From a bacterium (GTDB lineage: Bacteria; Bacteroidota; Ignavibacteria; SZUA-365), in the NCBI GenBank assembly GCA_020444325.1, contig JAHLLD010000012.1, forward strand, positions 62,001-126,000: 64,000 nt of DNA. The letters run 5' to 3'. The translations under genes were made by a program, and so were the position numbers. Below are positions 13,965 through 19,356 of the stretch, piece by piece (position 1 is the first letter of the stretch; every line of letters begins with the position of its first letter). The notes under the pieces are model-generated. The model had not been told where the DNA came from. It ran no database searches and saw only the letters and a program-made list of their open reading frames with translations.

Positions 13965-14139
13965 TCCTTTCCGGGGCGAAGCACGACCAACAGCCCTGCG
14001 GGACTGCTGCCGAACGCGGCTCCCCGCTTCCCCCTTTCCTTCCAGACGCAATCTCTCTACATTATTCATATTGCAACAAACCCCGGATTGGTGTGTCTTT
14101 ACACTGACGCGGAGGTATAACGCGCATAAGGACCCTGTT

Positions 14140-14730
14140 TTGCAGGAAGAGAACCGGCATACATCCCCGGCACGCTTCGAGGAACGCAGTGACGTCGAAC
14201 TGTTCCGGATGATTCGTGAGGACAATCGCAGCCGCGAGGCCGCATTCAGAGAATTGTACTCTCGTCTCTCAGGCAACGTGTATGCGTACTGCCGCTGCCT
14301 CGCCTGGCGCAGGGATGAAAGTGACGACCTCTTCCAGGAAGCGTTCACGCGTCTGTACGAGAGCGCGCTCGCGGGACGCGACATCACCAATGTCGCGGGC
14401 TATGTCATCAAGATCGCGCGTAATCTCTTCCTCAACATGCAGCGTGACCGCAAACCGACAGTCACCATCGAACACGACACGCTGAGTATGAGCGACGTGC
14501 CTCACGAGCGCACGGAAATGCTCGAACTGATACACATGGCCATGGAACTGCTGACCGACGATTATCGCGAGGCGTTTTTCCTCCGTGAATTCGCGGACCT
14601 GCCCTACGAGGATATCGCCTCGATCATGAACCTGACGAATGTGAACGTGCGCATTCGCGTGACACGCGCGCGCGAGAAAATACGCACCATCCTTCAACCC
14701 TACATCGCTGAATACGAAGAACACAAATAA
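14140..14730 (+). CDS. ECF-type RNA polymerase sigma factor
   Basis: The product has about 196 residues. Sigma region 2 is clear (AAFRELYSRLSGNVYAYC, then DESDDLFQEAFTRLYE), as is region 4 (DYREAFFLREFADLPYEDIA and a helix-turn-helix ending VRIRVTRAREKIR). It should direct RNA polymerase to a small regulon and be held inactive by a partner anti-sigma factor. The start is uncertain. No ATG fits, and a TTG at 14140 has AAGGA seven bases upstream, so it is preferred over an ATG at 13924 inside the amidase gene. The stop is ten bases before the anti-sigma-like gene. Confidence 0.85.
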   Translation: MQEENRHTSPARFEERSDVELFRMIREDNRSREAAFRELYSRLSGNVYAYCRCLAWRRDESDDLFQEAFTRLYESALAGRDITNVAGYVIKIARNLFLNMQRDRKPTVTIEHDTLSMSDVPHERTEMLELIHMAMELLTDDYREAFFLREFADLPYEDIASIMNLTNVNVRIRVTRAREKIRTILQPYIAEYEEHK

Positions 14731-14740
14731 GTATGCTGCC

Positions 14741-16213
14741 ATGAATCCGCACATTCCCACTACCGACGAACTGTTGCACGCCTGGATCGATGAGGAACTC
14801 GACCCTCAGTACGAAGCACAGTTTTTCTCCCAGCTCGCGACGGATCGCGAGCTGCGTGATCGCCTCCGCCAGCTGCGCGCGGTACGCGTTGAAGCCCGCA
14901 ATTTCGGAGCAGTTGCCGAACCGCCCGAAAGCACCACGCGTGCGGTTTTCGAACGACTCGGCTTTCCTGCCGAGGAGAAAAAGGAAAAACGCACTGTTGG
15001 CATTCTCCCCCTGTTCTCGCAGGCATGGAGTCCCATCGCCTCGGCCGCGGCAGCAGCGGCAATCACGGCGATGATATTCCTCGGCGTGCGCAGTACCGAT
15101 GTACAGAACCTCGCAGAGCCGATGGCGTCGAAACAGGAAGCAGCGACGGAAGCTGTATCCTCATCACCCGCGGAAAGCAGTTCCCACGCTCCTGAACATA
15201 CAGCACAGTCACCGGCAGTGGCTGAACAGCAAAGCGAATCGCAGGACGCGAGTGAATCTGCACGTGTAAACGGCGCGGCAGTCATGTCGCAGAAGCCGTC
15301 CATCGCAGCAGTCCTTCCGCCTGCAGCATTAACAACCGAAAGCTCAGATAATGGTGATATGGCCGCAGCAGGCACGTCATCGACCCCTGTCGAGGCGAGC
15401 GATCGCACCGGCAGATTCGAGGATATCTCTGACGAGGAACTGGCGGCGCTTCGCGAACTGTATGCGTCGCTCAACGATGCTGAATCCCCGCAGACACCTC
15501 CCGCCTCCTGGGTGGACGCTGGGGTACAGGACGGACTGCATACGTCGGAGAGCACTGTGGTCGCATCCTCGCTTCCATCGCGCGATGCGGACTTGACTGC
15601 GGCGCTGTCGTCGATGCCGGAGCAGACAGGGAGTGTCCTCGCACAGCAGCAGGTACCCGTGCAGGCGCATCTGCAGGCTCCCAATACGCAGCAGTACTTC
15701 CCCACGCTGGGCAAGTCGGAACTCCTCAACGCAATATCCGTCGAGCTGCGGGGCATGAACACGAAATCCTTCCCTGAGGCGACCATCGGTACGGATGCGG
15801 ATCCCCTGCTCGAGAACATGGCGGTAAGCGCTTATCTCAGCTACGACAGGCATGATATCGGACTCACCTACGGCGAGGAACCGTATTCCATGCATTTCAA
15901 CGGCATCGAAGAAGGAGAACAGGTGGGCTGGCAGCAGAATCTCATGACGTCATGGGTTGTCGCGAGCTGGCGCTACCGCTTCTCACCGATCCGTGCTCTT
16001 GCGAACATCGAACCCTACGTCACCCTCGGCGCGGGCACCAGCGTCCAGTTCTGGCCGATGGCCCGTTCGGGATTCGGACTCGCGTATATGCCCGATACAC
16101 GTGTTCGATTCTATGTCGGACTCGAAGGAAGCCTGATGGCATATCCTTATCAAAGCGCCTGGTTCACTTCACGCCGACTCGGTCTGACCTACGGCATCGC
16201 GGTACTCATGTAA
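14741..16213 (+). CDS. Anti-sigma-like membrane protein with C-terminal beta-barrel-like domain
   Basis: The 490-residue protein has four distinguishable parts. Residues 1-90 are charged and helical and look like an anti-sigma N-terminus (DELLHAWIDEELDPQYEAQF). No complete HxxxCxxC zinc motif is present. Residues 95-117 form one membrane helix rich in alanine. Residues 118-325 are low-complexity, rich in Ala, Ser, Glu and Gln. Residues 326-490 are beta-rich, with alternating strands such as AVSAYLSYDRHDIGLTYGEE, ANIEPYVTLGAGTSVQF and RVRFYVGLEGSLMAY, and resemble an OMP beta-barrel domain. Position directly after the ECF sigma gene supports a regulator role. The fused barrel-like end is unusual. 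The gene is followed 34 bases later by a lipoprotein gene. Confidence 0.7.
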   Translation: MNPHIPTTDELLHAWIDEELDPQYEAQFFSQLATDRELRDRLRQLRAVRVEARNFGAVAEPPESTTRAVFERLGFPAEEKKEKRTVGILPLFSQAWSPIASAAAAAAITAMIFLGVRSTDVQNLAEPMASKQEAATEAVSSSPAESSSHAPEHTAQSPAVAEQQSESQDASESARVNGAAVMSQKPSIAAVLPPAALTTESSDNGDMAAAGTSSTPVEASDRTGRFEDISDEELAALRELYASLNDAESPQTPPASWVDAGVQDGLHTSESTVVASSLPSRDADLTAALSSMPEQTGSVLAQQQVPVQAHLQAPNTQQYFPTLGKSELLNAISVELRGMNTKSFPEATIGTDADPLLENMAVSAYLSYDRHDIGLTYGEEPYSMHFNGIEEGEQVGWQQNLMTSWVVASWRYRFSPIRALANIEPYVTLGAGTSVQFWPMARSGFGLAYMPDTRVRFYVGLEGSLMAYPYQSAWFTSRRLGLTYGIAVLM

Positions 16214-16247
16214 CTGATTGCTCACTGGCAACAACGCAGGATCTCTC

Positions 16248-17504
16248 ATGTCGAGAAACATCATGTGGTCGAAGCGTCACAACATATTCAAGCACGTATG
16301 CGCTGCAGCAGTACTCGTATTGCTGACCACCTCCTGTGAATCCCCCCTCGACCCGGATACACCCCGGATTCGTATCACGGAGCCAACGCCGTATTTCCTT
16401 CGGACTTTCAACTTTTCGCTGACCATGGATCGGGAAGTGGGGCAGGACGTTCTTCAGCTCGATGACGGGGGCTACATCATCACCGGAAGCGTCACGACAG
16501 CCGACACGAAGTCAGCGGATGTCATGTTGCTTCGCACCGATGCGGAAGGCCATAAAATGTGGCTGAAAACCTATGGCGGCGTCAAGTCGGATATCGGATA
16601 TTCCGTCGCACAGGCCAGTGACGGCGGCTTTGTTATCGCGGGACAGACCGAGACCTTCGGTGAAGCCCCTGCCGATATGTGGATCATCAAAACCGACGCA
16701 AACGGTACGATGGAATGGCTGGAGCTGCGCGGCGGAGTGGGACGAGATATCGCGCAGGACATCATTCCCTCTTCATCCGGTGGCTACCTCGTTACTGGCT
16801 GGATAGACGATATCAACCACGGCGCGAATTATCTGTACGCTTCGCTGATCGACGAACGGGGCAAGGATGTCTGGGTATTCCAGCCGACCGGCATGAATCG
16901 GAATGACCGTGGACTCGCGGCGCTGGAAACGGCCGAGGAGGATTTTGTCGTCGTCGGAAGTACCCCTGATACGGCGGATGCCGGACTATCCGATATCTGG
17001 CTCATCAACATCGACGGCGGAGACGGGTCGGTGAACTGGTCGCGGATGATTGGCGCTCCCGACAATCTCGAGGGGGTCGATATTGCACAGACAATGGATG
17101 GCGGGTTCGCCATTGCGGCAAACAAAAGCACCGTGGGCTCCAACAACAAAAATATCTATGTCGTCAAAACCGATTCCGCCGGCAACGTGCTTTCAAGGAC
17201 GGTGCTGTCTGAACCTTCGGTCTCAAGAAGCATCAAGAGCTGCAGTGACGGTGGGTTTGTGCTGTGTGGATACACCAATCCGCTCGTGCAGACGAGTTCC
17301 GATATCTTACTGCTCCGCTTTGCGGCAGACGGATCCCTGCTCTGGAAGAAAAAAATCGGCGGCGAGCACATCGATCAGGCCCATGGCGTGGAGGTCACAC
17401 TGGAAGGCGGCTACATTCTTACCGGTACGACACAATCCTACGGAAGCGGAACCGAGGATGTCCTTCTTCTCAAAACCGATGAAAACGGGAATTACAAGGA
17501 ATAG
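16248..17504 (+). CDS. Repeat lipoprotein with propeller-like DGGY repeats
   Basis: The 418-residue lipoprotein has a lipobox LTTSC near residue 32, followed by ESPLDPDTP. The mature part contains about seven repeats of roughly 50 residues. Each carries a motif such as DDGGYIITGS, DGGFVIAGQT, SGGYLVTGW, DGGFAIAAN, DGGFVLCGY or EGGYILTGT, followed by a segment like MLLRTDAEG or LLLKTDENG. This pattern is common in predicted beta-propellers of Bacteroidota surface proteins. No enzymatic residues are evident. The ATG at 16248 has GCAGGA upstream. It lies close behind the anti-sigma-like gene and may share its transcript, so a ligand- or stress-sensing role at the outer membrane is possible but unproven. 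Confidence 0.72.
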   Translation: MSRNIMWSKRHNIFKHVCAAAVLVLLTTSCESPLDPDTPRIRITEPTPYFLRTFNFSLTMDREVGQDVLQLDDGGYIITGSVTTADTKSADVMLLRTDAEGHKMWLKTYGGVKSDIGYSVAQASDGGFVIAGQTETFGEAPADMWIIKTDANGTMEWLELRGGVGRDIAQDIIPSSSGGYLVTGWIDDINHGANYLYASLIDERGKDVWVFQPTGMNRNDRGLAALETAEEDFVVVGSTPDTADAGLSDIWLINIDGGDGSVNWSRMIGAPDNLEGVDIAQTMDGGFAIAANKSTVGSNNKNIYVVKTDSAGNVLSRTVLSEPSVSRSIKSCSDGGFVLCGYTNPLVQTSSDILLLRFAADGSLLWKKKIGGEHIDQAHGVEVTLEGGYILTGTTQSYGSGTEDVLLLKTDENGNYKE

Positions 17505-17536: not shown

Positions 17537-18319
17537 ATGAATGCGTCAATCGAGACCATAGCGCAGCTCTCCGTCATCGTCATCGCGGGACGGGAAGAAG
17601 ATAACATCGCAGATTGCCTGGCATCAGTGCGTTTCGCGGATGAAATCATTGTGGTTTGCTCTTCACGGGAAGACGCCACCATGGATATCGCATCCCGTTA
17701 TACGAAACACGTGCATTTCAGGGACTTTGATGGCTACGCCACACAGAAACAATTCGCGCTCGATCAGGCAACACGCGACTGGGTGCTGAGCCTGGATGCA
17801 GACGAACGTGTGACGCCGGAGTTGCACAGGGAAATCACTGCTATCGTCAGGAACGATGGTCCGATGGACGGCTACACCGTGCCCAGGAAAAATCACTTCC
17901 GCGATAAGTGGCTGCGGCATGGCGGATGGTATCCCGACCGCCAGCTCCGCCTGTTCCGCCGCACGCATAGCAGACTCACCGACCGTCTCGTGCATGAGGG
18001 ATTTGAAGTTCGCGGCAGCCGCGGTGAACTCGAAGGACCCCTTCTCCACTACACACTTCCTCACGTGCGTCACATGCTGCAGAAAAATCTTGCGTATTCG
18101 CTGTACGAAGCGCGCGAGAAAAGGAACAGACGGCGTGTGGGAGCACTGGATTTCCTGCTGCGTCCCCCACTTGAATTCGCCAAGAAATACATCCTGCAGC
18201 GCGGCTTCCTCGATGGCTGGGAGGGATTCGTGGTAGCGGCCATTCATGCACAGAACAAGATGCAGGTGTTGCTGCAGCTCTGGGAGATGCAGTATCGTGA
18301 CAGCGAGGCGAAGCGTTGA
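17537..18319 (+). CDS. Glycosyltransferase family 2, WaaE/KdtX-like
   Basis: This 260-residue GT-A enzyme begins with LSVIVIAGREEDNIADCL and carries the metal-binding DADE motif at SLDADERVTPEL. YATQKQFAL follows EIIVVCSS, as in LPS core glycosyltransferases of the WaaE/KdtX group. The family adds a sugar, often glucose, to inner-core LPS from a nucleotide sugar at the inner face of the membrane. The ATG at 17537 sits directly behind AGGGAG with almost no spacer, which suggests weak initiation. The downstream GT9 gene starts inside its stop codon, so the two are coupled. Confidence 0.82.
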   Translation: MNASIETIAQLSVIVIAGREEDNIADCLASVRFADEIIVVCSSREDATMDIASRYTKHVHFRDFDGYATQKQFALDQATRDWVLSLDADERVTPELHREITAIVRNDGPMDGYTVPRKNHFRDKWLRHGGWYPDRQLRLFRRTHSRLTDRLVHEGFEVRGSRGELEGPLLHYTLPHVRHMLQKNLAYSLYEAREKRNRRRVGALDFLLRPPLEFAKKYILQRGFLDGWEGFVVAAIHAQNKMQVLLQLWEMQYRDSEAKR

Positions 18320-19356
18320 GAACACCGCGCAGTATTCTCGTCATCCGGCCCGATCGCATCGGGGATGTCGTCCTTTCCACGCCAACCATTCGCGCGTTGC
18401 GACGCAGTTTTCCGGATGCACGCATAAGCGCGCTTGTGCGTCCCGCGACCGAACCGGTGCTGCGAAACAATCCGCATCTCAATGACATTCTCATCGACGA
18501 CTGGGAAGGACGGCATGCGGGACGCAGCGGTTTTTTCGATCGGCTGCGCATGCTGCGGCGGCACCGCTTCGATACGGCATTGATGCTGCTGCCCACGGAA
18601 CGTCATGCATGGATGACCTTCCTCGCCGGTATTCCACGGCGTGTCGGTGTCGGGACAAAACTGTACCAGGTCCTGACGTTCGCGCGTTCTGTCAGCCGCA
18701 GAAAGTACACTCCCCTGCGGCATGAGGCGGATTACTGCCTCGATCTTGCACGTTCGATCGGGGCCGAAGATGACGGACTCGCAACTGAAGTATTTCTCGA
18801 GGACCAGGAACGCGACGCCGCAGCCGCGCGGCTCCGGTCGCTTGGCTGGACGCCCGACCGGCGCACGATTTCACTGCATCCCGAGAGCGGTCGATCGGCA
18901 CCGAACTGGGAAGCGGAGAAGTATCGTGATTTCGTGCAGGAAACACGCACACGTTTCCCCGACGCGCAGGTGGTTGTCAATATCACACCCGCCAATACCG
19001 CTGTGCGCGATCTGTTCGCACCGTTCGCATCCGACCGCGTCTTTCTGCCCGACAATGGTGGAGACCTGCGCATGGTGATGGGATTTATCGCCCACGCATC
19101 CGTCGCCGTGTCAGCCAGCACTGGTCCCATGCATCTCGCGGCAGCGCTTCGCATCCCGACAGTCAGCCTCTTCTGTCCCCTCACTGCCTGCCACCCGAAG
19201 CTCTGGGGTCCCCAGGGCAACCAGGCCGTGACGCTGCTGCCTCCCGAAGATTACTGCCAGCAGCGCTGTCCCGGGGATCCGCATATCTGCACGCTCAAAG
19301 GCGGACTCGAGATTGTCGATGTTCTCGACGCGCTCCCACCTTTCCTCACAGCCTGA
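18316..19356 (+). CDS. Glycosyltransferase family 9 (heptosyltransferase-like)
   Basis: The 346-residue protein has the GT-B fold of ADP-heptose:LPS heptosyltransferases. The N-terminus reads ILVIRPDRIGDVVLSTP, the family hallmark. The C-terminal donor half includes ISLHPESGRSAPNWEAEKY and SASTGPMHLAAAL followed by IPTVSLFCP. The start is taken as the TTG at 18316, whose last bases overlap the TGA stop of the preceding glycosyltransferase. No other start lies upstream of the conserved N-terminus. The enzyme should extend the LPS core with a heptose or related sugar. It ends shortly before the minus-strand terminator of the Lon-like gene. Confidence 0.85.
   Translation: MRTPRSILVIRPDRIGDVVLSTPTIRALRRSFPDARISALVRPATEPVLRNNPHLNDILIDDWEGRHAGRSGFFDRLRMLRRHRFDTALMLLPTERHAWMTFLAGIPRRVGVGTKLYQVLTFARSVSRRKYTPLRHEADYCLDLARSIGAEDDGLATEVFLEDQERDAAAARLRSLGWTPDRRTISLHPESGRSAPNWEAEKYRDFVQETRTRFPDAQVVVNITPANTAVRDLFAPFASDRVFLPDNGGDLRMVMGFIAHASVAVSASTGPMHLAAALRIPTVSLFCPLTACHPKLWGPQGNQAVTLLPPEDYCQQRCPGDPHICTLKGGLEIVDVLDALPPFLTA

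Follow-up and report, generated by a model that had tools for sequence, protein, structure and literature searches.

The window, the whole stretch of 64,000 nucleotides analysed here, covers positions 62001-126000 of contig 12; the genome comprises 4.65 Mb in 25 contigs. The locus of interest carries the following features, all on the forward strand:

14072-14098 (+): putative autoregulatory ECF promoter, TGCAACAAA-N12-GTGTCT, conserved at equal distance 5' of the sigma gene in orthologues
14140-14730 (+): ECF sigma factor, 196 aa, TTG start (Pfam Sigma70_r2/r4_2; start backed by orthologue alignment)
14741-16213 (+): predicted membrane-spanning anti-sigma factor, 490 aa, Dma-like (AF2; ECF gene upstream in relatives)
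14762-14962 (+): anti-sigma domain, residues 8-74, without Cys (profile match to RsiW; four AF2 helices)
15023-15091 (+): the one transmembrane helix (residues 95-117), preceded by KKEKR (N-in)
15092-15733 (+): predicted disordered periplasmic tether, residues 118-331
15734-16213 (+): predicted 8-stranded outer-membrane beta-barrel, residues 332-490 (AF2, Foldseek, strand alternation, Phe ends)
16248-17504 (+): lipoprotein with seven propeller-type repeats, the conserved third gene (repeats; lipoprotein models below cut-off)
16335-16367 (+): N-terminal signature CESPLDPDTPR, from the presumed lipidated Cys, common to unrelated downstream lipoproteins

A sequence-only reading had proposed an ECF sigma gene followed after ten bases by a protein of 490 residues, and then by a propeller-like lipoprotein gene. 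The open reading frames confirmed this layout (14140-14730, 14741-16213 and a third one ending at 17504), with 10 bp between the stop codon of the sigma gene and the anti-sigma ATG at 14741. GT2 and heptosyltransferase-like GT9 genes of the LPS-core type (17537-19356) start 32 bases past the lipoprotein gene. Within the orthologue set of seven loci, this linkage was kept in all those with sufficient sequence, and the block as a whole is syntenic across the family, in the order DPP4-like peptidase, sigma, anti-sigma, lipoprotein, GT2, GT9, LON. Synteny alone is insufficient proof of co-regulation, which is worth testing in view of the parallel with the LPS-affecting Reo regulon described below.

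The sigma product matched Pfam Sigma70_r4_2 (2.3e-14) and Sigma70_r2 (6.9e-8), and its TTG start is supported by the TTG or ATG found at the aligned position in orthologues. Upstream of the sigma gene, the orthologues share an ECF-like element with the consensus TGMAACAAA-N12-GTGTCT. The TGAAAC -35 element of the putative window promoter is SigW-like. When 13 genomes were searched with up to one mismatch, the exact consensus was found five times, once in each of five genomes and always before the sigma operon; the 64-kb window contained a single exact match. The pattern was unmatched in two orthologue genomes, G004, where this region is poorly aligned, and G002, which does not have that sequence. 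The promoter assignment is putative and derives from conservation alone, and weaker targets would escape such a search.

We then considered the N-terminal part of the 490-residue protein, described as anti-sigma-like in the sequence-only reading. A family profile (A6) made from the N-termini of 13 relatives gave one convincing match in the PDB: residues 8-74 aligned with the RsiW anti-sigma domain (5wuq) at E=5.4e-4. The AF2 model of the full chain placed four helices in this region (8-16, 22-33, 36-55 and 63-72), followed by a long helix at 89-116. Both the anti-sigma-like N-terminus and the single helix proposed at 95-117 were thus borne out, the latter also by a KD maximum of 1.95 at residue 98. 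Single family members gave weak zf-HC2 and RseA_N matches, and the NCBIfam anti-sigma model scored 28.5 bits on the 490-residue protein, far below its cut-off. No FecR domain was matched in profile searches of the protein or its family, and the Pfam scan of the protein matched no family, barrel families included. The HxxxCxxC zinc motif that characterises ZAS domains is missing, because residues 1-120 contain no Cys. The full-chain model had an overall pLDDT of 54, with high values only in parts of the C-terminus. The low-confidence linker reached from about residue 117 to 330, with values mostly below 50 over about residues 117-312, in agreement with the linker of some 200 residues that had been noticed earlier; the tether is about 215 residues long in the window protein. 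In the family its length ranges from 97 to 253 aa, length and composition varying freely, and when extended all these tethers could reach across a periplasm.

The beta-rich C-terminus had been suspected of forming a barrel of at least eight strands. AF2 predicted eight strands (332-489) in the full chain, and again eight when the C-terminal domain was modelled alone with an alignment of 8 sequences, with moderate confidence (pLDDT 70, pTM 0.67). Foldseek searches of the PDB returned NspA (E=1.1e-4), OmpA, Ail, OprF, OmpX and OmpW, the top matches being mostly 8-stranded outer-membrane barrels with moderate TM-scores (0.4-0.6); matches among viral models were also mostly outer-membrane barrels. 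Hydrophobicity alternated along the strands more than in within-strand shuffles, both for the window protein (p=0.036) and for the family profile (p=0.014). The inner face of the predicted barrel carries conserved R337, E380, R442, E462 and Y468, together with several glycines. In 28 of 37 relatives the chain closes with Phe, as is usual for BAM substrates; the window protein itself ends in Met.

The fusion had been expected to recur beside ECF genes in related genomes, and it did. The window's genome contains five copies, in the window and on contigs 1, 2, 5 and 8, every one adjoining an ECF gene, and 20 of 41 related genomes had a match. Among the distinct relatives that bear a barrel, 35 had sufficient sequence on the upstream side, and in all 35 an ECF sigma gene lay directly upstream; these are kindred sequences and not independent events (loci L036-L041, from the same species as some loci of the wider genome search, were counted once). 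The four paralogues and the 35/35 association indicate that the arrangement is not due to chance. In a sample of 198 genomes of the phylum, barrel-covering matches occurred only within the window's class, among the matches listed; outside this class, and in several of its families, the anti-sigma part alone was matched, in shorter proteins, again among the matches listed. Among named relatives, the closest are MAGs that carry the title Bacteroidetes bacterium or uncultured Ignavibacteria; Candidatus Kapaibacterium is more distant. The relatives belong to the Bacteroidota, where NCBI also places Kapaibacterium. In the contig-1 paralogue (L003, 646-2040, +), an Ala/Gly-rich repeat of AAAGG units separates the anti-sigma part from the transmembrane helix, and about 35 bases of its reading frame, in the listed form, are shared with the sigma gene.

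The contig-5-type module is preceded by a separate element, TGTAACCTT-N12-GTGTTA. Each of these modules therefore seems to be self-driven, from a promoter of its own. Allowing one mismatch, further copies of the contig-5-type element (mostly TGTAACTTT...GTGTTA) were observed, five more in the window's genome (where the contig-5 module is L181) and seven in genome G008, against none in the reversed controls of both genomes. This difference suggests a wider ECF regulon.

The lipoprotein gene starts at ATG 16248, with TTG 16218 as an alternative. Its seven DGG[YF]-type repeats are about 52 residues apart, and this regular spacing fits the expectation for a 7-bladed propeller; delta-60 and SBBP lipoprotein models matched below cut-off. 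Directly after the presumed lipid-anchor Cys, we found the consensus C-x-S-P-[LT]-D-x-[DE]-T-P-R, which is common to lipoproteins with unrelated folded parts, a propeller in the window, a vWA domain in the contig-5 paralogue, and others elsewhere. Searched as a DNA pattern in 61 genomes, the signature gave 15 matches, 14 of them immediately downstream of a barrel anti-sigma gene, and none in the reversed control. The fifteenth (G039) lay inside a fabD-like gene and was discarded as a chance match. The window's genome contained two exact matches, both after barrel anti-sigma genes, and allowing mismatches raised the numbers to background. Being nearly exclusive to these sites, the CxSPxD peptide can be regarded as a signature of the module. 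A general lipoprotein export signal was also considered and rejected, as the peptide is confined to barrel anti-sigma operons. By a simple rule the next gene encodes a lipoprotein in 28 of 35 loci, and several cases missed by the rule are evident in the sequence; the lipoprotein is missing or dissimilar in about one fifth of the loci. The signature was not found at the paralogues of the same genome on contigs 1, 8 and 2. Downstream of position 2919 at the contig-8 paralogue (L004) lies a lipoprotein without CxSPxD that looks serpin-like by sequence reading. The simplest reading of the signature, by analogy with RcsF/OMP complexes, is that it docks on the barrel.

We consider it likely that the three genes form a Dma-like module that senses the envelope and regulates itself. 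The sequences show how genes and domains are ordered, which fold is predicted, how far proteins and promoter are conserved, and the lipoprotein signature; localisation and function are deduced from sequences and models. The anti-sigma domain would hold the ECF sigma factor at the inner membrane, and the transmembrane helix and long disordered tether would link it to the eight-stranded barrel, presumably inserted into the outer membrane by BAM. The trigger may be misassembly of the barrel, a ligand, or an altered contact with the co-encoded lipoprotein. The signal would travel down the tether and the sigma factor would be freed, most likely via cleavage of the tether or transmembrane region, and would then transcribe its own operon, lipoprotein included. 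The conserved N-terminal peptide of the lipoprotein would probably dock on the barrel, giving feedback. More speculatively, and we regard this extension as rather unlikely, the fusion of a class I anti-sigma domain with an outer-membrane barrel may have arisen in Kapabacteria-type bacteria separately from Bacteroides Dma, and each barrel may be read out by a dedicated lipoprotein, its conserved C-x-S-P-x-D-x-D-T-P-R peptide docking in the barrel or threading it. If true, a single chain would connect an RcsF/OMP-like sensor to sigma, and the lipoprotein heads that do the sensing (propeller, vWA, others) would be interchangeable.

Other explanations were weighed against the Dma-like module. The C-terminal domain could be a soluble periplasmic beta domain, the protein then being an ordinary anti-sigma factor of the inner membrane whose sensor in the periplasm is large. 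Such a domain would account for the absence of Pfam barrel matches, the moderate confidence of the barrel model and the terminal Met in place of Phe. However, it is very hard to reconcile with Foldseek matches that are almost all outer-membrane barrels, in the viral library too, with an alternating lipid face and a polar or Gly interior, and with the Phe ends of 28/37 relatives; we judge it highly improbable. The lipoprotein, for its part, could be a neighbour and not a partner, a bystander in a conserved block with the LPS glycosyltransferases (17537-19356), as the synteny of the whole block from DPP4 to LON would allow. The signature peptide, however, also follows a paralogous pair elsewhere in the genome, there on an unrelated (vWA) folded domain, and was otherwise not found in the window's genome, which makes a mere bystander improbable.

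It is also conceivable, if somewhat doubtful, that the barrel only anchors the tether, sensing being left to the lipoprotein or to proteolysis of the tether, which would signal that BAM has failed, much as a stalled OMP alerts DegS. The free variation of the tether in length and composition agrees with such a role, as does the behaviour of the P. vulgatus Reo system: a toxin that damages the envelope induces it, and a BamA inhibitor elicits a response in an overlapping set of genes (PMC9308784). Against it, the inner-face residues are invariant across paralogues, suggesting that the barrel does more than anchor.

With this module, in which we prefer to read the barrel as sensing, the known range of the membrane-spanning anti-sigma design grows beyond gut Bacteroidales and takes in a part of the Bacteroidota that is distant and uncultured, and genomes of the Kapabacteria/Ignavibacteria part of the phylum can hold several such modules (five in the window's genome). 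The chief new lead is the partner-lipoprotein signature: a lipoprotein encoded in the same module, with a short peptide that is conserved and may be a barrel ligand, is a testable handle not present in the cited Bacteroides literature.

The sequence-only reading had further claimed that known systems use only separate sensors or regulated proteolysis and that the arrangement might be new. This is refuted by Dma1/2/3 and EcfO/Reo; the idea of a bridging architecture was right, yet already published, since Dma and Reo proteins have been described in this way. A PNAS study of 2024 (10.1073/pnas.2321910121) reportedly dealt with Dma1, Dma2 and Dma3, together with Das1 and Das2, in Bacteroides thetaiotaomicron. 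In this species Dma1/2/3 have an anti-sigma domain, a transmembrane helix, a long disordered tether and a C-terminal barrel, beside an ECF sigma gene; Das1/Das2 accompany Dma1/Dma2/Dma3, dma2 lies in a three-gene operon, and Dma1/2 act on vesiculation (PMC13088901). EcfO/Reo of Bacteroides fragilis and Phocaeicola vulgatus pairs an ECF sigma factor with an anti-sigma factor predicted to span the periplasm and to carry an outer-membrane barrel; it responds to envelope stress, and its regulon comprises NigD lipoproteins and LPS changes (PMC9308784, PMC13114119). The Phocaeicola Reo protein is described as reaching, with a barrel, from the cytoplasm to the surface, and its loss frees the sigma factor, lengthens O-antigen and protects against toxins (PMC9308784, PMC13114119). 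The dual-membrane design is backed by genetics in Bacteroides/Phocaeicola (PMC13088901, PMC9308784).

The window family was compared with the named Dma1 and Reo by description, and in sequence with Bacteroidia fusions beside ECF genes gathered through PF13568. An NF058625 sigma search, tried as another route to such fusions, returned other ECF families instead. No profile similarity was detected between the N-termini of the window family and the short N-termini of the PF13568 set, so that the window N-terminal domain is a distinct variant; the barrels of both groups matched with 11% probability in a profile comparison. The Bacteroidia-fusion profile matched nothing in the window's genome, in a search run without a positive control. 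One Bacteroidia fusion beside an ECF gene (L146, 1547-3412, +) has, ahead of its transmembrane helix, the short N-terminal anti-sigma-like motif in several tandem copies. In the sigma tree, window-type sigmas formed their own supported clade, separate from the supported clade of Bacteroidia-fusion sigmas, and two non-barrel ECFs were nearer to the window's kind than to the Bacteroidia-fusion kind. A joint clade of both kinds was not rejected (AU p=0.138), and claiming an independent origin from this tree was not justified; on sequence grounds, an origin independent of Bacteroides Dma is possible.

Judged by its sequence, the window protein is a well-conserved Dma-like membrane-spanning anti-sigma factor, its own lineage's version of a published design. 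It shares with Dma the domain order, here as a prediction, and the adjacent ECF sigma gene, but differs in its distant lineage, its RsiW-like anti-sigma domain and its signature lipoprotein as third gene. Like EcfO/Reo, it combines an ECF sigma factor with an anti-sigma factor bearing a predicted outer-membrane barrel; in difference from that regulon, with its NigD lipoproteins and LPS changes, the exact conserved promoter of the window was found only before its own operon. Its N-terminal domain aligns over 67 residues with RsiW, a SigW-type class I anti-sigma factor, but has neither Cys nor zinc motif and is extended by a tether and a barrel. RcsF-OmpA/OMP, in which a lipoprotein and a small outer-membrane barrel report envelope state (PMC4942254), is a working analogy only: RcsF signals by a phosphorelay, and threading in the window module is hypothetical. 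In FecA/FecR/FecI, the signal also passes from an outer-membrane barrel through an anti-sigma factor to an ECF sigma factor, but the barrel there is a separate TonB-dependent transporter, in contrast to the fused barrel predicted here (PMC9249621). Beyond the cited Dma/Reo literature, the window module adds a distinct N-terminal domain, the lipoprotein signature and a conserved putative promoter.
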